From Granulicella sp. (lineage in GTDB: Bacteria > Acidobacteriota > Terriglobia > Terriglobales > Acidobacteriaceae), in the NCBI GenBank assembly GCA_025357875.1, contig JANYLK010000055.1, positions 62,001 through 126,000 on the forward strand: DNA of 64,000 nt, read 5' to 3'. Positions 1-58,468 of this stretch are shown piece by piece; within the stretch, counting starts at the first letter, position 1, and each line of letters opens with the position of its first letter. Position numbers and translations under genes: made by a program. The notes below the pieces were generated by a model. It ran no database searches and had not been told where the DNA came from. It saw only the letters and a program-made list of their open reading frames with translations.

Positions 1-1959
1 AAGGTCGCTGAAACTAAAGCTCGCATAGCTGAGACCGTAGCCAAACGGGTACAGAGGTGTGCTCAGAAGGTCCCAATAACGCTTGGCAACGTTTCGAGGA
101 TTATGGGGAATCTTGTAGTTGTAGAACAACGGCTCCTGACCAACGTCGCGCGGCCAGCTCAGTGGCAGATGACCGCCAGGATTTGCATCGCCAAGAAGCA
201 AGCGCGCAACTGCGTGGCCGCCTTCGGTACCCGGATACCAGATGTTCAGAATGGCAGGTACATGGGCGCTAGCCCAGGTAATGTCTAGAGGCCGGCCCGT
301 CATCAGGACCAGCACAACCGGTTTTCCGAGCGCCGTCACCGCCTCCATCAGGCGCTCCTGCTCGCCCGGAAGCTTGAGCGAGCCGCGTGAGGCAGCTTCC
401 CCACTCATGGTCTGCGCCTCCCCCAGCACGAGTACCGTGGCGTCGGCGCTCCGTGCGAGTTCCACGGCATGGTCGAACTCTACCTTGCGAGCCTCGTCGT
501 CCTTGAGTTGCGGTTGGTCGGGAACCACTTGCTCATCGAAAATGGTCGGCGAGCCGCGACTGATCTCCACACCCTTGGCCACGTCCACACGCGCATTGGG
601 AAGAGCTTCACGTAAACCCTTTGCGATCGTCACCGTGTCCCGCCGATCACCATGAATAGCCCAGGACCCTACGGTATCGAGCGCGCTATCCGCCAACGGA
701 CCGAGCACCGCCAGCGAGCGTAGGCTCTTGCTCAGTGGAAGAGTGTGCCCATCATTCTTCAGCAGCACGGCAGACTGTTCGGCGGCTATGCGCACGGCGT
801 CGCGCTGCTCGGTGGACAGCGTCTCGCGATGGAACTTGTCCATATCCACATACGGATGAGTAAAGAGGCCGAGGCGATATTTCATCGCCAGAATAGGGCG
901 AACCAAATTGTCCAACCGCGCCTCACTGAAAGCTCCACTCTTGATAGCCCCGGGCAGGTACTCGCGATAAAGCGAACTGCTCATCTCCATGTTCACGCCC
1001 GCCGAAGCCGCCAGAACGGCTGCATTCTGCGGACTGTCTGCGAAGCCATGAGTCTCGAGATTCTTCACCGCTTCCCAGTCACTGACCACAAAGCCAGAGA
1101 ACTTCCAGTCTTTGCGCAGTACATCCTGCAGCAACCATGTGTTACCCGTTGCGGGTACACCGTTCAGATCCATGTACGCCGACATAAAGGTCGCCGCCCC
1201 AGCGTCTGCGGCTGCATGAAAAGGGCGCAGATAAACGTTGTAGAGAAGTTCATCGGAGATGTCCGAGCTGTCGTAATCGCGACCGCCCTCTGCCGCACCG
1301 TACCCGGCAAAGTGCTTGACTGAGGCGAGAATGTGGTCGGGCGCGCCGATATAGTCACCCTGAAAACCCTTGACCTGTGCGCGGGCTATCTGCTCTCCAA
1401 GGTACGGATCTTCGCCGGCGCCTTCCATGATGCGGCCCCACCGCGCGTCACGAGCGATATCCACCATGGGGGCGAAAGTCCACTCCACACCAGCAGCACG
1501 AGTTTCGCGCGCAGCCATCGCCTGCGTCTTCATGACCAGTTCCGGATCCCAGGAAGATGCCATGGCCAGCGGGATAGGAGCGATCGTACGGAAGCCATGA
1601 ATCACGTCGTAGCCGAACAGAAGTGGAATGTGCAGCCGCGATTGCGTGACCGCGATTCGCTGTAGCTCGTTGATGCGCACCGGATCGGTAAAGAATAGGA
1701 AGCTGCCGACGCCGCTGCGGGCAAGCTCTTCCGCCTTGGCTGGCGGTGTGAAGTTGGGCTGCCCGGGAGCTTGCTCAAGTTGCTCTACCTTCTCGGCAAC
1801 CGTCATGCGGGTCAGAAGTTGATCCACGAAACGGTTGGTAGCAGCGTCCGTCGGGCGAGCGTCATCCTGCTGGCCGACAACGGAGATGGGAACGACGAAA
1901 AGCAGCGCCAGGTAAAAGGAGAGGCGCAAGAGTGGTACCTGACAGAGCTTCGTGGGCAT
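1..1959 (-). CDS. GH3 beta-glucosidase, 3' end outside window
   Basis: Secreted or periplasmic glycoside hydrolase family 3 enzyme, expected to release glucose from beta-glucan oligosaccharides. The ORF tracker missed it because no stop codon lies in the window; 653 codons read in one open frame to base 1. An N-terminal signal peptide (hydrophobic LSFYLALLFVVPISVVG) is followed by the GH3 TIM barrel. The KHF motif is at residues 215-217 and the predicted nucleophile is Asp294 in FVVSDW. The C-terminal sandwich ends with the GH3 signature YPFGYGLSY about 8 residues before the edge. The usual family length is 730-780 aa, so about 80-120 residues are missing. The ATG at 1959 is chosen because an in-frame stop lies just upstream. 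The gene is divergent from the 2269 gene, with a LacI-type palindrome between them. Which beta-linkage it cleaves is inferred from the GH30 neighbours. Confidence 0.93.
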   Translation of the reverse strand, partial: MPTKLCQVPLLRLSFYLALLFVVPISVVGQQDDARPTDAATNRFVDQLLTRMTVAEKVEQLEQAPGQPNFTPPAKAEELARSGVGSFLFFTDPVRINELQRIAVTQSRLHIPLLFGYDVIHGFRTIAPIPLAMASSWDPELVMKTQAMAARETRAAGVEWTFAPMVDIARDARWGRIMEGAGEDPYLGEQIARAQVKGFQGDYIGAPDHILASVKHFAGYGAAEGGRDYDSSDISDELLYNVYLRPFHAAADAGAATFMSAYMDLNGVPATGNTWLLQDVLRKDWKFSGFVVSDWEAVKNLETHGFADSPQNAAVLAASAGVNMEMSSSLYREYLPGAIKSGAFSEARLDNLVRPILAMKYRLGLFTHPYVDMDKFHRETLSTEQRDAVRIAAEQSAVLLKNDGHTLPLSKSLRSLAVLGPLADSALDTVGSWAIHGDRRDTVTIAKGLREALPNARVDVAKGVEISRGSPTIFDEQVVPDQPQLKDDEARKVEFDHAVELARSADATVLVLGEAQTMSGEAASRGSLKLPGEQERLMEAVTALGKPVVLVLMTGRPLDITWASAHVPAILNIWYPGTEGGHAVARLLLGDANPGGHLPLSWPRDVGQEPLFYNYKIPHNPRNVAKRYWDLLSTPLYPFGYGLSYASFSFSDL

Positions 1960-2268
1960 AGGGTTCTCATTCAGGAATCACTCAAGATCGAGTGAGGTAG
2001 GATTTTTTGACGTGCGCGGAGCGATCGAGTCCGGAATGCCTCGCCTACTCCTCACCCGGGCATGATACGACACAGGAACGACAATATGCCAGGCACCCCG
2101 AGCTGCCCAAGGATGAAAAAAGAATCTGAGACAAACGTTTGCTCACTCGTCGTCAAGCCATGACCGATGTGCGGTCATGGATGCGGGACGTTGGCCCACT
2201 GTGCTAACATCCCGGTGGATCACAGGTAGAATTGCGAAAGAATCTGCGCTCGAAAGTGGGAATCAAGA
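1960..2268. other. Divergent intergenic region of GH3 and the 2269 gene
   Basis: No ORF worth calling lies in these 309 bases. The region separates two divergent secreted-protein genes and must carry both promoters. Its clearest element is the palindrome at 2131-2142. I found no convincing pair of -35/-10 boxes for either side. Confidence 0.6.
2131..2142. promoter_or_regulatory. Putative LacI-family operator O1
   Basis: ACAAACGTTTGC, with a perfect 10-bp core palindrome CAAACGTTTG. It matches the site at the GH30 start in 11 of 12 bases. A central CG flanked by symmetric A/T runs is typical of LacI-family operators. It lies between the divergent GH3 and 2269 genes, about 170 bp from one start and 130 bp from the other. 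Assignment to the LacI protein encoded at 7135 is inference. Confidence 0.6.
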
Positions 2269-2835
2269 ATGACCGCTAAACGAATGTTGAGAGCCCTGGG
2301 TTTGGCGGGCGTGCTCGTGTTGAGTTCAGGCGGGAGTGCTCTTTCGATGCATTCTCAAACCACCGCCAATAGCGCGCCTGCGAGCCCCGGCATTCTGACG
2401 CGTGACCAGGCAGCCGCAATCTTCCCCGCAAATGTCTTTTTTCGCGGCCAAACCGCGACCACTCAGTCGCGTAATAGTTCGGGTGTCCGACTTGCAGATG
2501 GCAGGCTTGTGCTTGCCGCCATCGTCAATACCAGTGGATACTCATCCGGCGTGGCAGAAGCCTACCAGGCGTACCTGATAACGGAAGTTCCTTTGAATTT
2601 TGGCGCTCACGTGCTCAAGCCCGGAGCCTACGGGTTCGGGTTCGTGACGGGAGATCGCATGACGATCATGGATATCGGCGGAGCCGAGGTTCTGTCTGCG
2701 ACGACCGTTCACGATACGGAGTTGGCTCGTCCCATCCCCCTGCAGATTCTGCCCGAGGCTGCAAAATTCCGTTTGTACCTGGGACGGAACTATGTTTCGT
2801 TTACGGCAGCGCCAGGATCGACCCGCGTTCCCTGA
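2269..2835 (+). CDS. Secreted hypothetical protein
   Basis: A 188-aa protein of unknown function. The N-terminus has a basic start, a hydrophobic stretch (LGLAGVLVLSSGGSAL) and a likely cleavage near residue 30, so it should be exported. The rest is a compact domain rich in beta-strand-like segments with no motif I recognise. The ATG is preceded by GGGA at a reasonable distance. It lies between GH3 (divergent) and the GH30 operon (same strand, 166 bp downstream) and shares operator O1 with GH3, so it may belong to the same glucan regulon. No enzymatic role can be assigned. Confidence 0.75.
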   Translation: MTAKRMLRALGLAGVLVLSSGGSALSMHSQTTANSAPASPGILTRDQAAAIFPANVFFRGQTATTQSRNSSGVRLADGRLVLAAIVNTSGYSSGVAEAYQAYLITEVPLNFGAHVLKPGAYGFGFVTGDRMTIMDIGGAEVLSATTVHDTELARPIPLQILPEAAKFRLYLGRNYVSFTAAPGSTRVP

Positions 2836-2961
2836 AGCTGCTTTGGGTGAGCCTGGAACCAAACTCTCATACCCACAATTTCAATAATCGGTGGCCGTTG
2901 CTGCTCCGCAATGCGTCATGTCCCTGCTGCGCCATAAACGCTAAAGCCGTACCGTATCCGC

Positions 2962-2991
2962 TTGACAAGCGTTTCCTCAATGGCGTAGAAA
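2962..2991 (+). promoter_or_regulatory. Putative promoter of the GH30-GH30-lacI operon
   Basis: A perfect -35 box TTGACA (2962-2967) is followed after 18 bp by TAGAAA (2986-2991). Transcription would start only a few bases before the ATG at 3002, so the message may be nearly leaderless. A degenerate operator copy, ACAAGCGTTTCC (9 of 12 matches), overlaps the -35 box at 2965-2976. The segment resembles the promoter of the TonB receptor gene: both begin GCTTGACAAG and end TGGCGTA-RAAA. Confidence 0.6.
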
Positions 2992-3001
2992 CGCTACCGA
3001 T

Positions 3002-5632
3002 ATGAAAGACAAACGTTTGTTTGAGGCCCACTTTCGGAACCTATTTCTTGCGATCCCACTTTGCTGCCTCCTGGCTGCAGGGTGCGGTGGCGGCGGATCC
3101 CCGGCGACGTCCGCATCAACACCGACCGCAGCCGCGCCAACGCTCAATCCCAGTACGGGAACCTATATCTCTGCGCAAACCGTCACCATCGCCGACGCGA
3201 CAACGGGAGCGACAATCTATTACACGCTGGACGGGACAACGCCAAGTACTTCCTCCGCGAGATTTACCGCGCCCCTAACGATCTCCTCGACGGCGACCGT
3301 GAATGCCATCGCGGTGGCGACTGGCTACAACAACAGTGCGGTGGCGTCGGCGACCTACACGGTCAACCTTCCCGCGGCAGCAACGCCTACGTTCTCAGTC
3401 ACAGCCGGTACTTACACTGTCGTCCAGATAGTCACCCTCTCAAACACTACTCCCGGCGCGGCCGTCTATTACACGCTGGATGGGACAACGCCCACGATTA
3501 GTTCGTCGAAATACTCAAGTCCTCTCAGCATCTCCTCGACGGCGACCGTGAATGCCATCGCGGTGGCGACTGGTTACAACAACAGCGCGGTGGCTTCAGC
3601 GAGCTACACCATCAATCTTCCTCTGGCCGCAACGCCCACCTTCTCGCCGGCACCTGGAACGTTTACGGCGACGCAGACAGTCACGCTTAGCGACGCGACT
3701 GCAAGCGCTACGATCTACTTCACCACGGACGGGACAACGCCTACGATCTCTTCCACCAGGTACACGGCCCCTTTCACCGTGCCGACTACTTCAACTGTTA
3801 AGGCGATCGCCGCAGCAGCCGGCATGAGTACCAGCGCCGTCGCGTCGGGTTCTTACACCATCACGGCGGTTATAACATCGGTCAACATTGTACTGAGCAC
3901 GCACGATCAGGTCTCGCTGATGACCCCCCAATCGCCGGTCGCCTTTGCAACCAACCCAGCTTCGACAAACCAGATCATCGTCGACGAAAACCAGACCTAT
4001 CAGACGATGGACGGTTTTGGAGCGTCATTCACCGACTCAGCGGCGTACTTGCTGGAAACCGTTGTGCCTGCAAGCGCGCAATCCAGCACGTTCAATGACC
4101 TTTTCACGCGTGCCGGCGCTGGCATAGGTCTCAGCTTCATGAGGCTGCCGATGGGCGCAAGCGATCTCGCGCGCAATGAGTACACCTTCGACGACTCGAC
4201 CTCCCCCGATATCCCGCTAACCAACTTTTCTATCAATCATGACAAGACGTACATCATGCCGCTGGTCACCTCTGCCCGTGCGCTCAACCCGTCCATGAAG
4301 ATCATGGCAAACCCGTGGAGTCCGCCGGCCTGGATGAAGGACACCAATTCGATGAACGGCGGCAGCCTCCTTCCCTCCATGTACACGCCGTTTGCCAGCT
4401 ATTTCGTAAAGTATCTCCAGGCCTATAGCGCGGCGGGGATCAATATCAACTTCATTTCGCTGCAGAATGAGCCCCTTTACACCACCTTCGGCTATCCATC
4501 GATGTACATGGACCCCGCGACGCAGACTACGGTCATGCGCGACTATGTGCTGCCTGCGCTCACCGCCACCGGGCTCAGTACGCAGATCTTCGCCTATGAC
4601 CACAATTGGGATGGAGCCAGCTATCCGGAACAGATCCTGCAGGATTCGACCCTCTATGCTTCCCCATTTGTTGCAGGCACGGCGTGGCACGGATATGGAG
4701 GTGTCCCCGGCTTTATGTCCGCGGTGCAGAACCTCTATCCGAACAAGGGTATGTGGGAGACTGAGCACTCCGGAGGGACCTTCACCTCGGATCAATTCTC
4801 AACCGACTTCATGGAAATCACAGACGTACTTCGTAACTGGTCGAAAGGATATATCAAATGGAGTCTTGCTCTCGATCAGAATCATGGGCCCAACCTCACG
4901 CAGTTCGGGTTTAGCGGTTGCAATACTTGCACCGGCATCGTCACGGTCAACAGTACTAACGGCGCCGTGACCAGGAACACTGACTATTACACCCTCGGAC
5001 ACTACAGCAAATATGTGCTTCCAGGCGCCACGCGGATCTACTCGAGCAATGGTGTATACACCAGCAGCGTGGCGTTTCTGAATCTTGACGGATCCAAAGC
5101 GCTCATCGTGTACAACAATTCCAGCAGCAGTCAGGCCTTCCAGGTCGAGTGGGGTTCGAAGTCGTTCTCCTATACCCTCCCAGGCTTTGCAGCCGCGACC
5201 TTCACCTGGAGCAGCGCTCAAGACACGGTCGCGCCCCTCATCGCCACTTCGGAGATCCAGGGTTCGGACTACAGCAGTCAGTTTGGGCTCGCGGATGAAA
5301 AGACCGGAGACACAACCGGCGCCTACGATCTCGGATACGTCAACAGCAATGCCTACGCCGCCTATAACAATGTGAGTTTCGGGACAACCTCGCCCACAAA
5401 GGTTCTTGTTCGCTCCGCGAGCGCAGGCAGCGGCGGCACGCTCGAATTCCACCTGGATAGCCGGACTGGAACTCTGCTGGGTACGGCAACGCTGCCTATA
5501 ACCGGTGGCTACCAGACTTACCAAACTGTGCCGACGACACTCACTTCCTCAGTCACTGGGACGCACACCCTTTACATCATCTTTCACGGCACGGGAGGCA
5601 TCGCCAACGTGAACTGGTTCCAGTTCCAGTAG
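3002..5632 (+). CDS. GH30 glycoside hydrolase lipoprotein with three CHB_HEX repeats and a CBM6-like domain
   Basis: An 876-aa exported glucanase. The signal peptide ends in the lipobox LAAGC (Cys about 28), so it is probably a lipid-anchored outer-membrane enzyme. Residues about 45-290 hold three near-identical chitobiase C-terminal-type repeats of about 80 residues, each with a YYTLDGTTP-like motif (YFTTDGTTP in the third). The GH30 barrel begins at about residue 330 (QTMDGFGASFTDS). The predicted acid/base is Glu490 in LQNEP and the nucleophile Glu588 in ETEHSGG. Residues about 750-876 resemble a CBM6 module ending FHGTGGIANVNWFQFQ. GH30 enzymes of this type often cleave beta-1,6-glucan, so the substrate is inferred. 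It is first in an operon with a second GH30 (18 bp downstream) and the LacI gene. The start codon sits inside the operator region; a TTG at codon 6 is an alternative start. Confidence 0.93.
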   Translation: MKDKRLFEAHFRNLFLAIPLCCLLAAGCGGGGSPATSASTPTAAAPTLNPSTGTYISAQTVTIADATTGATIYYTLDGTTPSTSSARFTAPLTISSTATVNAIAVATGYNNSAVASATYTVNLPAAATPTFSVTAGTYTVVQIVTLSNTTPGAAVYYTLDGTTPTISSSKYSSPLSISSTATVNAIAVATGYNNSAVASASYTINLPLAATPTFSPAPGTFTATQTVTLSDATASATIYFTTDGTTPTISSTRYTAPFTVPTTSTVKAIAAAAGMSTSAVASGSYTITAVITSVNIVLSTHDQVSLMTPQSPVAFATNPASTNQIIVDENQTYQTMDGFGASFTDSAAYLLETVVPASAQSSTFNDLFTRAGAGIGLSFMRLPMGASDLARNEYTFDDSTSPDIPLTNFSINHDKTYIMPLVTSARALNPSMKIMANPWSPPAWMKDTNSMNGGSLLPSMYTPFASYFVKYLQAYSAAGININFISLQNEPLYTTFGYPSMYMDPATQTTVMRDYVLPALTATGLSTQIFAYDHNWDGASYPEQILQDSTLYASPFVAGTAWHGYGGVPGFMSAVQNLYPNKGMWETEHSGGTFTSDQFSTDFMEITDVLRNWSKGYIKWSLALDQNHGPNLTQFGFSGCNTCTGIVTVNSTNGAVTRNTDYYTLGHYSKYVLPGATRIYSSNGVYTSSVAFLNLDGSKALIVYNNSSSSQAFQVEWGSKSFSYTLPGFAAATFTWSSAQDTVAPLIATSEIQGSDYSSQFGLADEKTGDTTGAYDLGYVNSNAYAAYNNVSFGTTSPTKVLVRSASAGSGGTLEFHLDSRTGTLLGTATLPITGGYQTYQTVPTTLTSSVTGTHTLYIIFHGTGGIANVNWFQFQ
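3009..3020. promoter_or_regulatory. Putative LacI-family operator O2, perfect palindrome
   Basis: ACAAACGTTTGT is a perfect 12-bp palindrome about 10-20 bases downstream of the predicted transcription start, the same geometry as the E. coli lac operator. It overlaps codons 3-7 of the GH30 gene. The centre lies 44 bp (about four helical turns) from the degenerate copy over the -35 box. It is the best copy of the motif in the window. Confidence 0.65.
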
Positions 5633-5650
5633 CTGTAGAACGGAGAAATA

Positions 5651-7081
5651 ATGTCACGAAGAATCTCGAAGCACATTGCTTGCGCCGCGATGCTGTTGCC
5701 TATGATGATGGCCGCGGCGGCTCCTCGCCAAAGCACGGCAGCTATAGCTGTCTGGCTAACCTCAGCCGACCGCTCCTCACTCGTGGCCGAGCAGCCAGCA
5801 CGGCTTGCGTTCACGAAAACGGCCGCTGCTACAGGTTTAGTCATCGATGTGGACCCGTCGCATCGCTTCCAGACGATGGATGGCTTCGGGTTTGCGTTGA
5901 CCGGGGGCAGCGCCGAGCTACTGATGCGCATGTCTCCTGAGCATCGCGCCGCGTTGCTAAAAGAGATGTTCGGAACAGCTAGTGGATCGATCGGAGTCTC
6001 TTACCTTCGCGTTAGCGTTGGCGCTTCGGACATGAATTCACGCGTCTTCACGTATGACGACCTCCCGGCCGGAGAAACAGATCCTGAGGTGTCGAAGTTT
6101 AATCTGGGGCCAGACCTGGCGGACGTTGTGCCGGTACTAAATGAAATCCTCGCCATCAATCCGAAGATCTCAATCCTCGCCAGCCCATGGACCGCGCCCT
6201 CCTGGATGAAGACGAACAATCTCCCCAAGGGCGGCAGCCTTGATCCGAAATGGTACGCGGCTTACGCGCAATACTTCGTCGAATACCTGCGGGCCATGGC
6301 GTCTTACGGCATTACCATCCGCGCGCTTACTATTCAGAATGAACCCCTGAATCCCAAGAACACGCCCAGCATGGTGATGACCGCGAACGAAGAGTCCACG
6401 TTCCTCAGCGACGCTCTGGGACCGGCCTTGCGCAAAGCGGGGCTTAAGACGGAAGTGGTCCTCTACGACCACAATTGCGACCGACCAGACTATCCGCTGG
6501 ATATCCTTGCAGACCCAAAGGCAGCACAGTATGCAACGGGTTCCGGGTTCCATCTTTACGGCGGAACCATCGACGCGATGAGCAAGGTGCATGACCAGCA
6601 CCCCGACAAGGCTTTGTACTTCACCGAGCAGATGGTGGTTGATCACAAGAACGACGAACACTTCAACATCGCCGAATCGATCAGCCGATTGATGATCGGT
6701 GCTCCTCGCAACTGGAGCCGCAATGTTCTGCTTTGGAACCTTGCTGCCGACCCCAACTTCGGCCCGCATACCAACGATGGCGGCTGCCCGGTATGCCAGG
6801 GAGCCATTACGTTGGACGGCGACCAGGTCACGCGAAACCTCGCGTTCTACACAGTGGCACAGGTCTCCAAATTTGTGCGTGCCGGATCCGTGCGTATCGG
6901 TTCGGAGACCGCCGACAACACCGCGCTGCCCAATGTAGCGTTTGAAACACCAGACCACCGGACAGTCTTGCTGGTAGCGAATACCGGGAAGAACGAGCAG
7001 ACATTTACGGTCAAGGATCGTAAGCAGATGTTCACCGCCAAGCTGCGCGCCGGAGATGTCGCAACCTTCGTATGGCCATAG
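5651..7081 (+). CDS. GH30 glycoside hydrolase, periplasmic
   Basis: A 476-aa second GH30 enzyme, paralogous to the upstream lipoprotein but without accessory modules. A cleavable signal peptide (AACMLL-like core ending AAAAPRQS, residues 1-28) predicts a periplasmic or secreted enzyme. The catalytic domain starts at FQTMDGFGFALTGGS (about residue 75). The acid/base is Glu231 in IQNEPLNPK and the nucleophile Glu326 in YFTEQM. The C-terminal beta-domain is complete. CGGAG upstream of the ATG is a usable ribosome-binding site. A lipid-anchored and a soluble GH30 side by side suggest surface cutting followed by periplasmic trimming, with the GH3 enzyme finishing to glucose. The stop overlaps the extended reading frame of the LacI gene. 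Confidence 0.93.
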   Translation: MSRRISKHIACAAMLLPMMMAAAAPRQSTAAIAVWLTSADRSSLVAEQPARLAFTKTAAATGLVIDVDPSHRFQTMDGFGFALTGGSAELLMRMSPEHRAALLKEMFGTASGSIGVSYLRVSVGASDMNSRVFTYDDLPAGETDPEVSKFNLGPDLADVVPVLNEILAINPKISILASPWTAPSWMKTNNLPKGGSLDPKWYAAYAQYFVEYLRAMASYGITIRALTIQNEPLNPKNTPSMVMTANEESTFLSDALGPALRKAGLKTEVVLYDHNCDRPDYPLDILADPKAAQYATGSGFHLYGGTIDAMSKVHDQHPDKALYFTEQMVVDHKNDEHFNIAESISRLMIGAPRNWSRNVLLWNLAADPNFGPHTNDGGCPVCQGAITLDGDQVTRNLAFYTVAQVSKFVRAGSVRIGSETADNTALPNVAFETPDHRTVLLVANTGKNEQTFTVKDRKQMFTAKLRAGDVATFVWP

Positions 7082-7134
7082 GAACCGTAGTCTACCTGTA
7101 CACTGGACTGACTTCCCCCGTTCCAGGACGTTCA

Positions 7135-8172
7135 ATGGCGAAAGCGAATAACCCACGCACTCAGCGCACGACCCTGAAGAGCTTGGGAGAGCATCTAGGC
7201 CTAAGTCCATCCACGATCTCCTTCGTCCTCAATGGCACGCCCGGGCGATCCATTCCTGAACTCACCCGGGAGCGCGTCCGCAAGGCGGCGGCCGAACTGA
7301 ATTACCAGCCCAGCATGATCGCGCGTACTCTCCGCGGACAGAGCATGAAGACGGTTGGAATCATGCTTCCGGAACTTGGTGAGGGATATCACTCCCGAGT
7401 TGTCAGTGGTATCGGCGACATGCTGATGGAGAAGGAGTACTTTCACTTCACCGTGCAACACCGGCACAAAAAAAAACTGATCAAAACCTATCCCTACTTG
7501 CTGCAAGCCCGGGGTGTGGAAGGTATCCTGGCCATTGATACTTCGCTATCGGAGCCCTTGCCTTTACCGACCGTGCTCATAGCCGGACATACAAATCTAC
7601 CCGACGTAACCAACATCATGCTCGATCATGCGCTCGCGGCGAAGCTTGCGCTCGGCCACCTCTACAGCCTTGGCCACAGGAAAATCGTGCTTATGAAGGG
7701 TCAGTCCTTCAGCACCGATACCGGGTTGCGTTGGGATGCAACGCTGGCAGCAGCAAAGGAACTCGGGCTGCAAGTCGACCCCGAACTCTTCATCGAGCTG
7801 ACCGTGGACTCGGTCTCTCCAGCCATCAGCTACCCGCAGGTTAATGAGTTGCTGCAAAAGCATTCGGACTTCACCGCGATTCTTTCGTTCAACGATGTCT
7901 CGGCTATGGGCGCGATTCGCGCCATACACGACGCGGGTATGCGTGTCCCGAAGGATGTATCCGTCCTTGGATTCGACGATATCCAGTCTTCCCTTTTCCA
8001 CGTGCCGAGCCTGACAACTATTCGGCAACCTCTGCAGGCCATGGGCAGCACGGCCGCGGAGGCCTTGTTGCGCAAGCTCGATGGTGAGTCTGTGCCGGAC
8101 ATCATCTGGGTGGAACCGACATTGGTCGTCCGTGAATCGACAGGTCCGGCAACACGGCGACATCGCCACTAA
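7135..8172 (+). CDS. LacI-family transcriptional regulator
   Basis: A 345-aa sugar-responsive repressor from the ATG at 7135. The tracker start at 7072 would add 21 residues without domain character and overlap the GH30 stop. The LacI-type helix-turn-helix lies at residues about 13-35 (TLKSLGEHLGLSPSTISFVLNG), and the hinge helix is near PSMIARTLRG. A periplasmic-binding-protein-like ligand domain follows from about residue 70, with the conserved DVSVLGFDD and TTIRQP segments. It is last in the GH30-GH30 operon, so it is probably autoregulated through operator O2. Its likely targets are the ACAAACGTTTGT palindromes at 2131, 3009 and 14660. The effector is unknown; a glucose- or gentiobiose-like product is a reasonable guess. 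Confidence 0.93.
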   Translation: MAKANNPRTQRTTLKSLGEHLGLSPSTISFVLNGTPGRSIPELTRERVRKAAAELNYQPSMIARTLRGQSMKTVGIMLPELGEGYHSRVVSGIGDMLMEKEYFHFTVQHRHKKKLIKTYPYLLQARGVEGILAIDTSLSEPLPLPTVLIAGHTNLPDVTNIMLDHALAAKLALGHLYSLGHRKIVLMKGQSFSTDTGLRWDATLAAAKELGLQVDPELFIELTVDSVSPAISYPQVNELLQKHSDFTAILSFNDVSAMGAIRAIHDAGMRVPKDVSVLGFDDIQSSLFHVPSLTTIRQPLQAMGSTAAEALLRKLDGESVPDIIWVEPTLVVRESTGPATRRHRH

Positions 8173-8201
8173 GCACTCGATTTGACCAGAAATCACGCGC
8201 T

Positions 8202-9935
8202 CTAGGGCCGCGCGGAGATGACATTCGCTTTCGGGGCGATGGGCGTTAGTTGGCCACCTTGCTTGAGCTTGTAGAAGCCATCTACAGGAACCTGCGTGAA
8301 AGCCTGAGTCGCACCGCCCGGCCAGTTCACCTCAACTTTGTCGATTGTGCGGGCCGCCCCAAGTCCGAAGTGCAAAGCCAGTTCGCTTTGTGACAGGTAA
8401 CTACCTCCACTCCGCACTTCGCCGAGTTGATGAACCTTGCCCGTGGTAACTCGCACTCGTGCGTTGAGTGCAAGCTTGTTCGTAGGAGCGCCCTCGAGCG
8501 CGATGCTGACCCAATGGTTGGCGGGATCGGCGCGGCTCTCCAAAATCATAGGCGAACCATCAAGGTTTTCTACGATGATGTCGAGTACGCCGCGACGGAA
8601 GAGGTCCGCCACAGCAAGCCCGCGACTCACCTGTGGCACAAGAACATCTTTCCCCGCCGTCGCACCGGCCGCACGAAAAGTTCCATCGTGCTGATTCATG
8701 TAAATGAGTTTGGGCTCGCGGTACGCCGTTCCTCCCTTGCCCGTTTCCACCTGCGGGTAGACGTGGCCGTTGACCAGCACCAGATCCAGCCAGCCGGAGT
8801 TATCCAGGTCAACGAAAGCGTCACCCCAGCCCACATACGGCACACTCGCACGTGCGATCCCAGCAGTATGGGATACATCCGTGAAGCTCAGCGAACCATC
8901 GTTGCGATACAGCGTGGCGTATTCATCGCTGAAATGAGAGATTGCAATGCTCATCAAACCGCTGTGGTTGTAGTCGCCGAGCGCGACACCCATATTCGCC
9001 TGCTCCATTCCCTCTTCACTCACCGCGACTCCGCTATCGAGCGCAATCTCCTTGAAGCGTCCGTCTCCTTCGTTGCGATATAGAAAATTAGGCTCACCGT
9101 CATTTGCGACGAACAAGTCAAGCTTGCCGTTGTTGTCGAGATCGGACCACACCGCTCCCAATCCGAAGAAGTGACGAGGATCATCGACTCCGGCCTGCTT
9201 CGAAACCTCTGTGAACGTTCCGTTACCGTTGTTGTGGAAGAGAGAGTCCGGCGAACCCGGCAAACCACGAGGTCCGCACTGCACGGCAACATCGTGATAC
9301 TGACACGTCTTCTTCGACCCGAACGAAGGCAAGTCGTGAAGATTCAAGTCGACGTAATGCGGCACGAAAAGATCGGAGTTGCCGTCGCCATCGTAGTCGC
9401 CGAAGACAGCACCTGTGGCCCAGCCCTCATCTTTATCCAGCCCGGACGCCTTGGTTACATCGGTGAACGTGCCGTCCCCATTGTTCCGGTAGAGAATGAC
9501 TCCGCCGAAGCAGCTAACGATCAGGTCGGGGCGTCCATCGTTGTTATAGTCGCCTACAGCCGCGCCCATCGCCCAGCACGGAACGCCGACACCAGCCTTA
9601 TCAGTCACGTCGGTGAAGGTGCCGTCATGGTTGTTGTGGTACAGCGCACTGCGCGCCTTCTTTCCTGCCAGGGCCATTGCGACACTCGGTGCATTGGTAA
9701 AATAAAGGTCAGGCCAGCCGTCGCCGTCGTAATCGATGACCGCGACCCCACCACTCATCGACTCCACGATGTACTTCTGGTCAGAACTTGATATGTGATC
9801 GAAGTGAATGCCTGTAGATGCGGTGATATCCACCAGTTGAGGAATATGCGCCGGCCTCTGCGCCCACGCCTGCGAGAACAGGACTCCCGCGCAGATTAAA
9901 CGCACCCATCCGCGTAAACAAGACCGTCGTGTCAC
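8202..9935 (-). CDS. CRTAC1-family FG-GAP/ASPIC-UnbV secreted protein
   Basis: A 577-aa exported protein. The signal peptide (residues 1-25, ends AWAQ) is followed by six or seven FG-GAP/VCBS-type repeats with calcium-binding-loop signatures such as DYDGDGWPDLY, DYNNDGRPDLI and DLDNNGKLDLF. The C-terminal ASPIC/UnbV domain covers residues about 460-550. Family members form beta-propellers with binding rather than known catalytic roles. The start overlaps the stop of the TPR gene by 4 bases (ATGA), so the two are translationally coupled. With the TonB receptor upstream they form a three-gene cluster. I infer a surface or periplasmic glycan-binding role in the uptake system; direct evidence for binding is absent. 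Confidence 0.9.
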   Translation of the reverse strand: MTRRSCLRGWVRLICAGVLFSQAWAQRPAHIPQLVDITASTGIHFDHISSSDQKYIVESMSGGVAVIDYDGDGWPDLYFTNAPSVAMALAGKKARSALYHNNHDGTFTDVTDKAGVGVPCWAMGAAVGDYNNDGRPDLIVSCFGGVILYRNNGDGTFTDVTKASGLDKDEGWATGAVFGDYDGDGNSDLFVPHYVDLNLHDLPSFGSKKTCQYHDVAVQCGPRGLPGSPDSLFHNNGNGTFTEVSKQAGVDDPRHFFGLGAVWSDLDNNGKLDLFVANDGEPNFLYRNEGDGRFKEIALDSGVAVSEEGMEQANMGVALGDYNHSGLMSIAISHFSDEYATLYRNDGSLSFTDVSHTAGIARASVPYVGWGDAFVDLDNSGWLDLVLVNGHVYPQVETGKGGTAYREPKLIYMNQHDGTFRAAGATAGKDVLVPQVSRGLAVADLFRRGVLDIIVENLDGSPMILESRADPANHWVSIALEGAPTNKLALNARVRVTTGKVHQLGEVRSGGSYLSQSELALHFGLGAARTIDKVEVNWPGGATQAFTQVPVDGFYKLKQGGQLTPIAPKANVISARP

Positions 9936-11134
9936 TTGGGCTGCTCGTCCGATGGACCAGCTTGCCTCATGTTCTGGTACACCGCCTTCAGCTTCTCGCG
10001 TTCGTCCTTATAGCGTTGATAAAGTTCCAACTCGCGCTTTACATCGTTAGGACGCTTCAGCTTGCGGTACACAACACTTAGCCGATAGTGAGCCAGACTG
10101 TTGGACGGGTCTGCAGCTTCAACTCGTTCAAGCAGCGAAGCTGCTGCCGCAGAATTACCCCTCTCAGAAAGAATATTGGCCGACCCAATCTCCGCGTCTG
10201 CATAGTTCGGCTGAATCTTTAACGCCTGCTGATACGAGGACATGGCCGCGGTCGAGTCGCCTTGCTCTAATTCAATATCTCCCAGCCTGCTCGCAGCCTT
10301 CGGATCGTTAGGTGCAGTCTGCACCGCAAGCTTGTATTGTTCCAGTGAATCCGCGCGCAGACGCTGATCGTCCGAGGCATGGAGCGCTTCGGCCAACTCA
10401 AAATGTATACCCGGCAGCGACGGATCGAGTTCAAGCGCCTTGCGCAGATTATTAGTGGTGCCGGCAAGGTCACGCTCCCGTTGAAGTTCGTGCGCCATCG
10501 CCTGGTGTAGCTGCCCAGATTCAGGCGCAGCAAGAGCCAGGTCCAGCAGCGCCTCCACGGCCATGTCGTTGTGGATGCGGTAGGACGTATAAAGCAGGTT
10601 GGCGTCGGTCGGCTTGGACTTCAAGAGCACATCAACGGTCTCGGCCGCCTTATCGAGTTCTCCCGCGCTGGAGTAGCTCTCGATCAGGTCTCTGCCAACA
10701 TCCAATTTAAGCTTCTCGTCCTCAATGCGCGGAAAGGCAGCTTCAAGGTCGCGGCGACCACTGAGACCGTCACCAACGCGGCGCTCGGCAAGCCCAAGCA
10801 GCGACTGAATCTTTGGCAGGTCGGGCTTCAGCTTCAGCGCCTCCCTCAATTGTGGAATGGCCGGCACAAACTCACCCTGAAAGAAAAGCAGCACTCCTAG
10901 ATTCGCATGAGCTTCGAGGTTGTTCGGATCCAGCGCAAGCACCGCTTGCAACTCCGGGATTGCCTTGATTGGCTCATGCTGCGCGAGGTATTGCTGTGAG
11001 AGCCGAATGTGATGGGAGAGCGGAGCTTCCTTATCTCCGTCAGCGGAAGTGCCTTGGCCCAAAACCGACGCTGCGGACAACATAAGCAACATCATCGCCA
11101 GCATCGTTTGCGCTTGCATCGTGAGTGAAATCAT
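9932..11134 (-). CDS. Secreted tetratricopeptide-repeat protein
   Basis: A 400-aa exported TPR protein. The N-terminal signal peptide (MQAQTMLAMMLLMLSAASVLGQ) is followed by roughly nine TPR-like helix pairs, for example AIPELQAVLALDPNNLEAHANLG and AMSSYQQALKIQPNYADAEIG. TPRs mediate protein-protein contacts. Because SusD proteins are themselves built on a TPR scaffold, this protein could be the functional stand-in for SusD beside the TonB receptor; that is inference. The gene starts 67 bp after the receptor stop, just past a strong terminator hairpin, and its stop overlaps the start of the CRTAC1-like gene. GGGGT directly before the ATG is a weak ribosome-binding site. Confidence 0.9.
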   Translation of the reverse strand: MISLTMQAQTMLAMMLLMLSAASVLGQGTSADGDKEAPLSHHIRLSQQYLAQHEPIKAIPELQAVLALDPNNLEAHANLGVLLFFQGEFVPAIPQLREALKLKPDLPKIQSLLGLAERRVGDGLSGRRDLEAAFPRIEDEKLKLDVGRDLIESYSSAGELDKAAETVDVLLKSKPTDANLLYTSYRIHNDMAVEALLDLALAAPESGQLHQAMAHELQRERDLAGTTNNLRKALELDPSLPGIHFELAEALHASDDQRLRADSLEQYKLAVQTAPNDPKAASRLGDIELEQGDSTAAMSSYQQALKIQPNYADAEIGSANILSERGNSAAAASLLERVEAADPSNSLAHYRLSVVYRKLKRPNDVKRELELYQRYKDEREKLKAVYQNMRQAGPSDEQPK

Positions 11135-11149
11135 ACCCCGTACCGGATG

Positions 11150-11186
11150 AAAAAAAAGGACGGGCGGCCCGCAGGCCGCCCAGTCC
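11150..11186 (-). terminator. Rho-independent terminator between TonB gene and TPR gene
   Basis: On the minus strand a 12-bp GC-rich stem with one bulged base (GGACTGGGCGGCC pairing with GGCCGCCCGTCC, loop TGCG) is followed by eight T residues. It sits after the receptor stop and 16 bases before the TPR start codon, so it should reduce, not abolish, expression of the two downstream genes relative to the receptor. Confidence 0.85.
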
Positions 11187-11201
11187 TGCTAGTGACGCAT
11201 T

Positions 11202-14200
11202 TTAGAATGACAAGCGCAATCCGCCCTGCAGCACACGGCCACCAGTGGTCGCCCCATTAATCTGAGGTCCGCTCCCTATGTTGTCGAAGTTGGTATTTGG
11301 CTGCCCGAGGTTAGTATGGTTGAACGCGTTGGTTGCATCGACGCGAAGTTGAAGTCTGACCTGCTCATAGAAGGCAAACTCTTTTCCTGCAGAGATGTTT
11401 ACCAGTTCGAGTCCAGGACCATACAGGAAGTTCCGGCGAGTGTTGCCGAATGTGCCGTTCACAGGATCACTGAAGGCAGCAACGTTATACCAGTTGTAGC
11501 TGGTGCGGCCACCCTGGGGAATGGTCGACCCGCCGTTATAGTTTGCGAAGGGTGATGTCTTTGATGGTCCTATCAATGCATCACTCTTGGTTGCATTTAC
11601 GCTGAACGGATTGCCACTTCGGAACTGCATTGTGCTCGAAATCTGATAACCACCCAGGATCGCATCCACGAAGGGATTCTTGTTCAGGAACATGCGTCCC
11701 CGGCCTATCGGAAGTTCATAGACAATGTTTCCCTTGAAGGAATTGCGGATATCAAAGTTAGAGTTGCTGTAGTTGGAAGCGGCATCTTTGTACTGCCGTT
11801 GCTGCGGGCCCGCGCGGCTACCCCATCCGGACGAATCCTGATCGTCCAGGAAGTGTGACCACGTGTAGTTGAAGTTGAAGCTCACACCTCGCGCCATGCG
11901 GCGGTTTACCGACGCCTGCAGCGAGTTGTAGTTGGATATGCCATCGTTGGTGCTGCCGTTGATTTGGTTAAACGTAGGATTTACCCTGGCAGCTTTAAAG
12001 CTATTAAAGCCTGGTGACATCGCTGACATTGGCGCTTGGTTGATGTCCGTCGGAAAATTCAGATTGAAGCCATGGCTGGCGACGTAGGCCAGTTCAAACG
12101 ATGTATTTGAACCGATCGAACGCTGCATATCCAGGTTCCACTGGTAGATCTTCGGATCAGGCGTATCGAACTGCGTGTAATTGACGCTCTGTCCGTTATA
12201 CCTGGCCGGGTTGGTGTTATTCGATTGCGTGTAGGGCAATGGCTGACCATTGGCCACCTCGGTCCCGGGGCCGCCGAGCACGACCGCTGCCGTAACCCCG
12301 TTACTAGGATCGTTGTAGTTGCCGGAGGCGCTCAAAAGTCCGCCCATGCCACCTCCGTAGGTATCAAGGCTGAGATTGTACGCATAGAGTCCGAAGCCCC
12401 CACGAAGAGTCGTCCCAGGCGCCATCAGCCAGGAGAAGCCGGCCCGTGGCAGCAGGGTTGAGTACTTCGAGGATTGCAACGAACCTCGGCCATTCGCTTT
12501 TGTGTTCCCGTACCAGAAGGCGCCGGGAGTGTTGCTTACCGGGTTCAGCACGGAGGGGTCGTAGGTATCCTCATTGCCGTGAACTTCACTCCAGCCGCGA
12601 CGGATCTGGTAGCGCAGACCAACATTGACAGTTAGGTTGGGCGTTACCTTGTAGTCGTCCTGGACAAATACCTGCGGTGTCTTCAGACGAGCGCCGTACT
12701 CGGGAGAAACGCCGGCGTTCCAGCTGTTGGCCTGGCCGAGCAGGAAGTCAGCGTAGTCCGTGCCCGTGCCTCCATTGGGAACAGCTACGCCAGCAGCATT
12801 CAAGGTCCACTGCTGCGTGTACTGACCGGAGAATTGAAAGGTTCCGGCGTTCTGGTTGCCCCAGGCGGTTGAGTTGTCGTCATAGATCAGCATCTCGCCG
12901 CCGAAGTGGAGAACGTGTTTTCCCCGAATCAAAGTGACTACGTCCGAAGGGTCGAACACGTGCTCTTTATAGACCGAATTGCTTTGCGGCTGGATCCAGC
13001 TGTAAGGATAATTGTTGATGAACTGGATTGCGGGAATCGTATCCGCCTTGGCGAACTGCCAGCCCAGGGCGCCTGAAATCCCCTTACCGAAAGAGTCGTC
13101 CGTGAAGAAGTTGCCTTGGTAGGTATAGCCAATACGCGCTTCGTTCACTGCATGAGCGCTGAAGGTATGAACCTCAGTGATCTGCGGATTGTAGCTGTCG
13201 ACATCCTGATTCTGGCAGTTAACCGGGCATGCAGTAATGTTGCTCGGCGCAACCACGGGCACGTCCCTCTGGGTCACTGACATCGTCAATCTGTCCTTGG
13301 CTGTGATGTCGTAATCCAAGCGGCCAAAATAACGACGAACGGGGTTCGATCCAGGAACGGCACTCTGGAAGTTGTGTTGGATCTGGCCCTGACCGTTAGC
13401 CTGTCCGGCAAGGAAGACGCCAGTAGCAATGTGGGTCGTCGGAGTTGGGTAGAACTTTTGGAAGTTTGCCGCAACCTTGTCGAACTTGGAAGCGGGAACG
13501 GCATTGGTTCCGTACTCGCTGAGGAACGATTGCCGAATCGGGTATGGGTTTCCATTTATATCGTGACCAATGGTTTGCGTCGTTGGGTCGTAGATTAGCG
13601 GCTGCCCGGTGAAGTCCCCTCCCATAACCGCGACTGTCGGGACATCCAGGGTTGAAGTCCCGCTGGCTCCGCGGCTGACAATCTGGTCGTAGTTAAAGAA
13701 GAAAAATGCTTTGTTCTTCACGACCGGCAGCAGCACCGGCCCGCCGATGGAACCACCGAAATTGTTATAACGGTGACTGTAGTGAGGCTTCGATCCTGGA
13801 GTGTTGATCTGTGGGTTCAGCGCGTTGAACTGCGTGCTCTGGAAATAGTCATATCCCGTACCGTGGAAATGACCAGTCCCGCCTTTGCTGATCTGGTTGA
13901 AGATGATGCCACCGATGCCGTACTGCGCGGAAAAGGCGGAAGTCGATACTTGCAGCTCCGAAACCGTCTCGAAGATGTTCACATCAGCATTCTGGCTGTG
14001 CGAAAGCGTGGTCGAGGCGCCGTCAGCAAGCACGTTGCTGTACGGCAGATTGCCGTTGGCCGAAACCTCCTGGCCAGGGCTGACTTGTCCTGCAGCGCTG
14101 TTCGAACCTGAGGTTCCCGGAAGTAGAATGGCGAAATTTTGCCAATCCTGTCCAACGTTCGGCAGCTTGGACATCGACCGCGCCACAAGGGTCGTCTGCT

Positions 14201-14606
14201 GTGTGCCTGATTCGGTGTCCAGAAGCGGAATGTCGGTATTTACCTCGACAGTTTCGGTGGTTGAACCGACCTTTAAGATCGCGTTTACGGTCGAAACTCC
14301 CACCTGCAGCGAGATCGCAGAACGCTCCAACTTGGTAAAGCCGTCCTTCGCAAACGTCACCTTGTAGGTGCCGACCACGATGGAAGAAGTGTCGTAGAGC
14401 CCATCTTGGTTGGTGCTCAGAACCTTGGTGATTCCGGTTTCTATGTTAACGACTGTCACTGTGACGTTAGGCACGAGTGCGCCGGTCTGATCGGTAACGA
14501 CTCCTCGAATATCGCCGGAATTTGTGGCCTGCCCCACGGCCACCGCAAAACTCGACGCGCAAAGTGCAATGACAAGAAAAGCGCGAATCCTCAAAAATAA
14601 TTTCAT
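11202..14606 (-). CDS. TonB-dependent receptor with carboxypeptidase-regulatory-like N-terminal domain
   Basis: A 1134-aa outer-membrane receptor of the Oar/Cna-like type common in Acidobacteriota. The signal peptide covers residues 1-26. A CarboxypepD_reg/Cna-B-like domain (IRGVVTDQTGALVPNVTVTV) occupies residues about 30-115, followed by a plug domain and a long beta-barrel that ends in the aromatic terminus GGLRLSF. A perfect AGGAGG Shine-Dalgarno lies 5 bases before the ATG. It has its own promoter and two putative operator sites. Such receptors import large substrates with TonB energy; co-regulation with GH30/GH3 suggests glucan oligosaccharides, but the substrate is not visible from sequence. 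No SusD homologue is adjacent; TPR and FG-GAP genes follow instead. Confidence 0.94.
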   Translation of the reverse strand: MKLFLRIRAFLVIALCASSFAVAVGQATNSGDIRGVVTDQTGALVPNVTVTVVNIETGITKVLSTNQDGLYDTSSIVVGTYKVTFAKDGFTKLERSAISLQVGVSTVNAILKVGSTTETVEVNTDIPLLDTESGTQQTTLVARSMSKLPNVGQDWQNFAILLPGTSGSNSAAGQVSPGQEVSANGNLPYSNVLADGASTTLSHSQNADVNIFETVSELQVSTSAFSAQYGIGGIIFNQISKGGTGHFHGTGYDYFQSTQFNALNPQINTPGSKPHYSHRYNNFGGSIGGPVLLPVVKNKAFFFFNYDQIVSRGASGTSTLDVPTVAVMGGDFTGQPLIYDPTTQTIGHDINGNPYPIRQSFLSEYGTNAVPASKFDKVAANFQKFYPTPTTHIATGVFLAGQANGQGQIQHNFQSAVPGSNPVRRYFGRLDYDITAKDRLTMSVTQRDVPVVAPSNITACPVNCQNQDVDSYNPQITEVHTFSAHAVNEARIGYTYQGNFFTDDSFGKGISGALGWQFAKADTIPAIQFINNYPYSWIQPQSNSVYKEHVFDPSDVVTLIRGKHVLHFGGEMLIYDDNSTAWGNQNAGTFQFSGQYTQQWTLNAAGVAVPNGGTGTDYADFLLGQANSWNAGVSPEYGARLKTPQVFVQDDYKVTPNLTVNVGLRYQIRRGWSEVHGNEDTYDPSVLNPVSNTPGAFWYGNTKANGRGSLQSSKYSTLLPRAGFSWLMAPGTTLRGGFGLYAYNLSLDTYGGGMGGLLSASGNYNDPSNGVTAAVVLGGPGTEVANGQPLPYTQSNNTNPARYNGQSVNYTQFDTPDPKIYQWNLDMQRSIGSNTSFELAYVASHGFNLNFPTDINQAPMSAMSPGFNSFKAARVNPTFNQINGSTNDGISNYNSLQASVNRRMARGVSFNFNYTWSHFLDDQDSSGWGSRAGPQQRQYKDAASNYSNSNFDIRNSFKGNIVYELPIGRGRMFLNKNPFVDAILGGYQISSTMQFRSGNPFSVNATKSDALIGPSKTSPFANYNGGSTIPQGGRTSYNWYNVAAFSDPVNGTFGNTRRNFLYGPGLELVNISAGKEFAFYEQVRLQLRVDATNAFNHTNLGQPNTNFDNIGSGPQINGATTGGRVLQGGLRLSF

Positions 14607-14610
14607 ACTG

Positions 14611-14616
14611 CCTCCT
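14611..14616 (-). promoter_or_regulatory. Strong ribosome-binding site of the TonB receptor gene
   Basis: AGGAGG on the minus strand, 4-5 bases before the ATG at 14606, is the full consensus complementary to 16S rRNA. It fixes the start of the receptor and suggests high expression. Confidence 0.85.
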
Positions 14617-14659
14617 AAAGTGTGTCACTTGCTTCTAGAACAGGCCCTCGGCTTCGAAG

Positions 14660-14671
14660 AAAAACGTTTGT
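14660..14671. promoter_or_regulatory. Putative LacI-family operator O3
   Basis: AAAAACGTTTGT matches the perfect O2 palindrome in 11 of 12 bases. It lies in the 5' leader of the TonB receptor gene, about 50 bases downstream of the predicted promoter. Confidence 0.55.
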
Positions 14672-14720
14672 CTACTTGAGGACACGCCGCCTCGCGAAGT
14701 CTCATTGGAATCGACACAGA

Positions 14721-14749
14721 TTTTTACGCCAGCCACCCACACTTGTCAA
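14721..14749 (-). promoter_or_regulatory. Promoter of the TonB receptor gene
   Basis: On the minus strand a perfect -35 TTGACA (14749-14744) and -10 TAAAAA (14726-14721) are separated by 17 bp. The surrounding sequence shares GCTTGACAAG and TGGCGTA-RAAA with the GH30 promoter. The message would have a leader of about 110 bases containing O3 and the AGGAGG site. Confidence 0.7.
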
Positions 14750-14799
14750 GCTGTGTTTCACAAACATTCTGATTGTTTGGTCTGACCATTCGCTTGAAG

Positions 14800-14811
14800 A
14801 CAAACGTGAGC
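14800..14811. promoter_or_regulatory. Putative operator half-site O4
   Basis: ACAAACGTGAGC keeps the left half of the palindrome perfectly and 9 of 12 bases overall. It lies about 50 bp upstream of the TonB promoter -35 box. Its centre is 140 bp from O3, so O3 and O4 bracket the promoter in a way that could allow a repression loop. Confidence 0.35.
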
Positions 14812-14986
14812 CTTTAGACTCAACGCGCATACGTCAAAGCGCTCGATAGCCGCGTATCCGAACAGCCACGGCTAATACCCTGACGAATCTGCTTTGCCGA
14901 CGCCGATCGGTGAGAAAGCTCTGCTCCGGCAAATGGAAGTCAACGCGCTCTCGGTGCTTAAGGCGTTGCAAGGGTCAAAAAGAAAA

Positions 14987-16219: not shown

Positions 16220-16457
16220 GGCTGATAGGATTTCGCATATTAGAGTACAGGACGGCTGCAACGGTCCTGCCTGCCCAGTCTTGCCGGCTCTCCAATTCCC
16301 ACTTGATACCATGCATCACCCGTCAGCGCAACCCCACAGAGTGCCAGTCCGCATGGGCGTTTCGGGGTGCAGCAACGCTGCGTTGGCCGTGGAACAATCG
16401 GGTCTCCGCCTTCACTCAGGGGCTTACAGGGGGGACATCATCGCTATCGCGGTTCGA

Positions 16458-58076: not shown

Positions 58077-58436
58077 ATGCCTACGATCCGCGTTGAACTG
58101 CCGGCTCATCTATGCACGCTGGCGCGCATCAGTGGCTACGAGGTGAGCGTCGAAGTGCCTGCGCCGGCGACTGTCCGCGTCGTTCTTGACGCTCTCGAAG
58201 CCGCGTACCCGATGCTTAGCGGCACCATTTGCGATCACGTCACGCTTGAACGCCGGGCGTTTCTGCGCTTCTTCGCGTGCCAGCAGGATCTTTCCCTCGA
58301 GCCAATGGACGCGCCGCTTCCCGCTGCGGCAGTGAATGGCCGCGAGCCGTTTATTATTCTCGGCGCGGTCGCTGGCGGCCAGGTTGGTGGCCCCGATCAG
58401 GGTAGACGGGAGTCCTTCTCGTTTATCGTGGGGTGA
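58077..58436 (+). CDS. MoaD/ThiS-family ubiquitin-like protein with C-terminal extension
   Basis: A 119-aa protein of the MoaD/ThiS sulfur-carrier fold. The core [18 protein letters not shown] through LGAVAGG matches the family, which normally ends in Gly-Gly. Here GG (of AVAGG) is followed by 18 residues, [18 protein letters not shown]. The extra tail would have to be removed for thiocarboxylation, or the protein has another role. AAGGGG precedes the ATG. It lies between vapC and GH115, whose start follows the stop directly. Confidence 0.75.
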
Positions 58437-58468
58437 GTCTCTTTTGCGACTCGCAAGGAGCGCCAGAG

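Follow-up and report, generated by a model that had tools for sequence, protein, structure and literature searches.

Gene content of the locus

The DNA analysed here (the window) is a 64-kb stretch of the 4.56-Mb genome of Granulicella sp. Near its start lies a 12.5-kb locus in which one LacI-type regulator very probably switches a set of genes for the use of glucan (Table 1). On the plus strand orf188 is followed by two glycoside hydrolase (GH) family 30 genes, GH30a and GH30b, and by the LacI gene. The two GH30 genes and LacI form one operon, with a gap of 18 bp between GH30a and GH30b and an overlap of the LacI open reading frame (ORF) with GH30b; alignment with relatives places the true start of LacI probably at the ATG at 7135 (M22). 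The minus strand carries the divergent GH3 gene and, farther on, a three-gene unit headed by a TonB-dependent receptor, in which the TPR and FG-GAP/ASPIC genes overlap by 4 bp. A preliminary description of this DNA had listed the GH30/LacI operon, the divergent GH3 gene and the receptor on the opposite strand, and gene calls with Pfam and NCBIfam matches confirmed all of these. The inventory was incomplete, as the TPR, FG-GAP/ASPIC and orf188 genes and a GH55 gene had not been mentioned.

Table 1. Genes and predicted operators of the locus, with positions in the window.
Feature	Position	Strand	Basis or remark
GH3 beta-glucosidase (BglX type), N-terminal 653 of 767 amino acids	1..1959	-	PF00933, PF01915; leaves the window at its start
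Predicted LacI operator ACAAACGTTTGC, between GH3 and orf188	2131..2142		third-best matrix match, 21.3
orf188, secreted protein, first gene of the GH30/LacI strand unit	2269..2835	+	family conserved in the genus
GH30a, predicted lipoprotein: three CHB_HEX_C_1, GH30_3-type catalytic domain, C-terminal CBM6	3002..5632	+	Pfam; 5NGK; lipobox LLAAGC
Predicted LacI operator ACAAACGTTTGT, over codons 3-7 of annotated GH30a	3009..3020		best matrix match, 29.3
GH30b, secreted GH30_3-type endo-1,6-glucanase candidate	5651..7081	+	5NGK; conserved active-site residues
LacI-family regulator	7072..8172	+	Pfam LacI and Peripla_BP_3; orthologues in relatives
FG-GAP/ASPIC-UnbV secreted protein, third gene of receptor unit	8202..9935	-	Pfam; synteny with TPR and receptor in relatives
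TPR secreted protein, second gene of receptor unit	9932..11134	-	Pfam; synteny
Oar-like TonB-dependent receptor (CarboxypepD_reg and OMP_b-brl_4)	11202..14606	-	PF25183, E 5.5e-191
Predicted LacI operator AAAAACGTTTGT, 54 bp upstream of receptor start	14660..14671		second-best matrix match, 25.9
Possible degenerate second operator AGACAAACGTGAGCCT	14798..14813		fifth matrix match, 10.1; near chance alone
MFS-like inner-membrane transporter, probable member	14987..16312	-	weak PF07690 match, below cut-off; linkage in relatives

A conserved, predicted operator for the LacI regulator

It had been proposed that a shared 12-bp palindrome links the three transcription units, and its three copies were verified. 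The count in the window is not above chance, since three matches with up to two mismatches in 64 kb were reached by 20 of 100 shuffles, and for this reason comparative tests were used. In the whole genome there are eight sites with at most one mismatch, three of which fall inside the 12.5-kb locus (Poisson P ~4e-7), and ACAAACGTTTGT is the only exact copy. The other five single-mismatch palindromes are on C6, C21, C128, C202 and C206; the two on C6 and C21 lie ahead of distantly related TonB receptors (29-30% identity) and are unproven as operators.

LacI orthologues, 55-66% identical, were found in 25 other genomes of the same genus; in the contig scan for LacI a single-protein query gave no match, and the 25-sequence alignment worked. 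The orthologue usually adjoins GH3, GH30 and GH5/GH55-like genes and the receptor-TPR-FG-GAP unit. In the commonest layout LacI is divergent from a GH3-GH5-GH30b-GH55-like series and the receptor-TPR-FG-GAP unit faces LacI. Carriers include Edaphobacter modestus, E. aggregans, Granulicella mallensis, G. aggregans and Bryocella elongata, some of which are without certain genes of the locus.

The exact 14-mer GACAAACGTTTGTC was counted across 60 genomes of the genus. Its 28 sites are spread over 16 of them, none of which lacks the LacI orthologue (Fisher P 3.6e-8, an optimistic value because related genomes are not independent), while the reversed control gave 0 matches. Every one of the 28 sites lies upstream of LacI/GH3, of a receptor orthologue or of a GH55-like gene, typically in the LacI/GH3 intergenic region. 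Targets unlinked to LacI are the receptor in G032, G053, G029 and G017, GH3 in G030, a GH55-like gene in G044 and a second receptor in G033. Exact matches of a slightly smaller length belong to GH55 genes in G033 (L100, L129) and a GH5 gene in G039 (L102); the remaining 12-mer matches adjoin unrelated genes and are probably due to chance. A 16-bp matrix trained on the sites of relatives only, and then applied to the window, placed the three window sites at ranks 1 to 3, with the next-best match at 11.6 and none at those scores in shuffled windows.

LacI paralogues with 46-52% identity exist in this genome and in relatives, and the operators of most LacI-family regulators are even palindromes with CG at the centre (PMC4052901). 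The palindrome might on these grounds belong to another regulator, such as a paralogous LacI, with the linked LacI controlling something else. This is very unlikely, as the 14-mer occurs only in genomes with the LacI orthologue and typically beside its gene, and the paralogous loci (L067-L072) have no site within one mismatch. Phylogenetic footprinting thus strongly supports the palindrome as a real operator and LacI control of the locus, as had been suggested. The link between the three units stands by clustering, conservation and the matrix; the count within the window does not sustain it, and the GH30a copy lies within an ORF.

A perfect 8-bp inverted repeat, AGCGTTTC-N12-GAAACGCT, was also observed at 2968-2995, between a TTGACA (2962-2967) and the start of GH30a. 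Its halves resemble everted operator half-sites.

The GH30 enzymes resemble a beta-1,6-glucanase

Both GH30 proteins gave their strongest scores with the structure of BT3312 (5NGK). For GH30b the match had an E value of 1e-79 and 272 bits, and for GH30a an E value of 1.9e-74 and 254 bits. Glucocerebrosidase (GBA) reached 140 and 112 bits, respectively, and xylan-active GH30 structures did not exceed 86 bits with GH30b and 86-90 bits over both proteins. With the BT3312 equivalog model, whose strict cut-off is 700 bits, the two proteins stayed below that mark at 399 and 308 bits; with the XynC model they scored 55 and 30 bits. Asp131, Trp179, Asn237, Glu238, His281, Asn282, Glu339 and Trp377 (BT3312 numbering) are conserved in 15 of 15 aligned sequences, so that the catalytic pair and the -1 subsite residues of BT3312 (Asp131, Trp179, Asn237, Glu238, Glu339, Trp377) are present. 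Equally invariant is the Cys393/Cys396 pair, which forms the disulfide loop of BT3312. The residue roles are taken from PMC5481569, where this CxxC loop is said to occlude xylanase subsites. These scores and residues, rather than a phylogeny, support the placement of both enzymes as BT3312-like (GH30_3-type) and not xylanase-like.

Since the GH30 family also includes xylanases, and a GH115 alpha-glucuronidase is encoded elsewhere in the window (58433-61219), the GH30 and GH3 enzymes could be acting on xylan or glucuronoxylan in a hemicellulose locus. The scores and the CxxC loop led to rejection of a xylanase reading of the GH30s; the locus yielded no xylanase genes, and the GH115 gene, unrelated to the locus, has no operator nearby. 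A role in hemicellulose use is thus extremely unlikely. Membership of GH30_3 had been expected in the preliminary description, with a fall into the xylanase subfamilies as the outcome that would speak against it; the closest characterised relative is BT3312 and not a GH30_1, GH30_7 or GH30_8 enzyme, and the xylan-active enzymes and XynC score far lower.

GH30a consists of a lipobox, three CHB_HEX_C_1 modules, the GH30 barrel with its C-terminal beta domain, and CBM6. Its N-terminal part contains tandem 249-nt repeats, 73% identical, which code for CHB_HEX_C_1 modules (3182-3679).

The GH3-GH55 unit points to a mixed glucan

The GH3 gene is completed to the left of the window (L041). The full-length protein of 767 amino acids passes the BglX equivalog cut-off (751 against 666 bits), and its nearest PDB chains include periplasmic beta-glucosidases. 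A GH55 gene coding for 579 amino acids lies 8 bp behind it on the same strand, outside the window (C179:59908-61647). Its product matches SacteLam55A (PDB 4PEW) over the full catalytic length with an E value of 1.9e-168. GH3 and GH55 thus make up the divergent unit, and the locus includes a beta-1,3-glucanase. In relatives, GH5 and GH55-like genes occur within the units of the LacI locus or in units that bear the operator. The GH5 proteins resemble exo-1,3-glucanases and related enzymes, and the GH55-like protein, of 992 amino acids, has a weak match to a fungal GH55 glucan 1,3-beta-glucosidase (E 2e-11).

Judged from these sequences, the substrate is probably the mixed beta-1,3/1,6-glucan that occurs in the walls of fungi (and of lichens or algae), because GH55 adjoins GH3 here and relatives carry GH5 and GH55-like genes. 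The locus could instead be dedicated to pure beta-1,6-glucan (pustulan), like PUL1,6-beta-glucan of Bacteroides thetaiotaomicron, with GH55 as an incidental neighbour. The two GH30_3-type enzymes and GH3 do correspond to the enzyme pair BT3312/BT3314 of that system (PMC5481569). We regard this as improbable in view of the position of GH55, the GH5 exo-1,3-glucanase-like and GH55-like genes in the units of relatives, and the unlinked GH55-like (G044) and GH55 (G033) genes which have exact operator matches of their own. The earlier proposal of beta-1,6-glucan use is thus supported by the GH30_3-type enzymes, and its restriction to 1,6 linkages probably does not hold. Granulicella mallensis is known to hydrolyse laminarin (PMC3910553), and a strain of this species has the LacI-GH30b pair (L149).

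The receptor unit and the absence of SusD

The FG-GAP/ASPIC gene is conserved beside the TPR and receptor genes in relatives, and the receptor orthologues carry a matching operator. The receptor matched no NCBIfam model at all, SusC included, and its barrel is of the Oar-like family PF25183; its AlphaFold2 model, with a pLDDT of 34, was not usable. SusD (PF07980) was found neither in this genome nor in any of 100 genomes of the class. The statement that the locus works without SusD is accordingly true, and the absence was rejected as a special feature of the locus, being class-wide. The MFS-like gene adjoins the receptor here; its product had no match in a PDB search, and relatives of it at 35-43% adjoin the LacI orthologue in L144, L149, L156 and L157.

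SusD has a TPR scaffold. The receptor, TPR and FG-GAP/ASPIC proteins might together be a glycan capture and import complex of Acidobacteriota, similar to SusCD with its surface glycan-binding protein (SGBP) and serving here for fungal beta-1,3/1,6-glucan under LacI. The TPR protein and the FG-GAP propeller would in that case replace SusD and the SGBP. This proposal is a tentative one, rather unlikely on present evidence, and what speaks for the two proteins as SusD-like partners is their conserved linkage.

Matches to the Oar-like receptor family PF25183 number at least 51 in the genome as a whole (G000), against 10 for UnbV/ASPIC, and a minority of the Oar-like receptors is marked by an FG-GAP/ASPIC partner.

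Neighbouring genes

The orf188 protein had no Pfam or NCBIfam match, and a Foldseek comparison of its AlphaFold2 model, of moderate quality, with the PDB gave no significant fold match. The family is conserved across the genus, mostly at another genomic place, and is LacI-adjacent in L057 and L143. An AAA+ ATPase gene (16212-17930) adjoins the locus; it has weak IetA-type matches in a defence library and is probably no defence gene. Farther upstream on this contig (L041:374-2890 and 8577-14787) there are another GH3 gene and a GH31 gene, with apparently broken receptor pieces nearby.

Discussion

The present analysis indicates that the locus, in all likelihood, encodes a LacI-controlled surface-to-periplasm pathway for fungal-type beta-1,3/1,6-glucan. 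Gene content, GH30_3-type active sites, the adjacency of GH55, the conservation of the operator and the membership of the regulon in relatives were obtained by computation; for the substrate, the localisation of the proteins, the direction of transport, the inducer and repression upon binding, we infer the following scheme. LacI would bind operators of the GACAAACGTTTGTC type, most likely as a repressor that is released by a small gluco-oligosaccharide. The lipoprotein GH30a, with its CBM6, and the secreted GH30b could be cutting beta-1,6 links outside the cell, where GH55 would cut the beta-1,3 links. Import of the oligosaccharides would be the task of the Oar-like TonB receptor and of the TPR and FG-GAP/ASPIC partners co-transcribed with it. 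From these oligosaccharides the periplasmic GH3 of BglX type would free glucose, and the MFS protein probably brings the glucose into the cell.

Several observations weigh against this pathway. Five of the 25 linked loci (L047, L052, L059, L062, L064) have no operator site within one mismatch. The exact operator ACAAACGTTTGT sits inside the annotated GH30a ORF and not upstream of it, and no evident Shine-Dalgarno sequence precedes the ATG at 3002. Because the operator overlaps the annotated start, the GH30a mRNA may be leaderless or its translation may begin elsewhere. With regard to the enzymes, Asn244 is kept in all 15 aligned sequences except GH30a, and Trp345, the platform of the -2 subsite in BT3312, is replaced by H, R, K, Q, T or E (mostly H, R or K) in GH30b-type sequences and by F in GH30a. 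The fine specificity may differ for these reasons, and at the level of sequence there is some uncertainty about the -2 subsite, greater for GH30a than for GH30b. As this platform is known from one enzyme, its loss was taken as a difference in specificity and not as subfamily-defining, and the label GH30_3-type was chosen because the platform is not conserved. Moreover, cultures of Edaphobacter paludis, for which laminarinase genes are predicted, did not display this ability (PMC11354219).

Acidic soils rich in fungi and lichens harbour Acidobacteriota in abundance, and the circuits by which these bacteria take up glycans are largely uncharacterised. The regulon described here is specific and cheaply testable, with one regulator, one 14-bp operator and defined targets in many Edaphobacter and Granulicella species, several of which are available in culture collections. 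Genomes of this phylum hold dozens of Oar-like receptors. The receptor-TPR-FG-GAP unit is a candidate for an import module that works independently of SusD, and the possible SusD-like role of its TPR and FG-GAP proteins is the point of greatest interest in the locus.

Comparison with known systems

Like PUL1,6-beta-glucan of B. thetaiotaomicron, a polysaccharide utilisation locus (PUL; BT3309-BT3314; PMC5481569), the present locus combines a GH30_3-type surface lipoprotein, a GH3 enzyme and a TonB transporter for fungal-wall glucan. In contrast to it, there is no SusD, the receptor is Oar-like and not SusC, and the regulator is a LacI protein and not of SusR type; there are two GH30 enzymes, one with CBM6, an added GH55, and the TPR and FG-GAP/ASPIC partners. 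It is not a SusCD-type PUL, because neither the genome nor the 100 class relatives contain SusD and the receptor is Oar-like. By architecture the locus is closest to the carbohydrate utilisation loci with TonB-dependent receptors (CUT loci) of Proteobacteria, in which receptor, enzyme, transporter and regulator occur without SusD and cases of LacI-regulated TonB receptors are known (PMC1790865). As in the CUT loci of Xanthomonas and Caulobacter (e.g. sux; PMC1790865), a TonB receptor, degradative enzymes and a sugar regulator are brought together without SusD, and parts are possibly scattered; a possible counterpart of the inner-membrane transporter is the MFS-like gene, with its weak family match and its LacI linkage in several relatives. 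The differences lie in the receptor family and the phylum, in the predicted substrate, a fungal-type beta-glucan, and in the TPR and FG-GAP partners.

LacI regulons have been widely reconstructed, in a survey whose text does not mention Acidobacteriota (PMC4052901). The present operator shares with the local regulons of that survey an even palindrome with a central CG and local control of glycoside utilisation genes, and differs in that one site lies over the start of a coding sequence and that relatives have unlinked targets. The logic of control is of a known kind, and a central-CG palindrome with LacI is ordinary for such loci. The GH55 protein is like SacteLam55A (PDB 4PEW/4TZ1) but stands beside GH3 in a LacI/TonB locus of Acidobacteriota. 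No description of such a regulon in Acidobacteriota was found in searches of the open-licence literature. The parts are all of known kinds; the regulatory circuit, whose DNA switch is conserved in many related species, appears to be previously undescribed.

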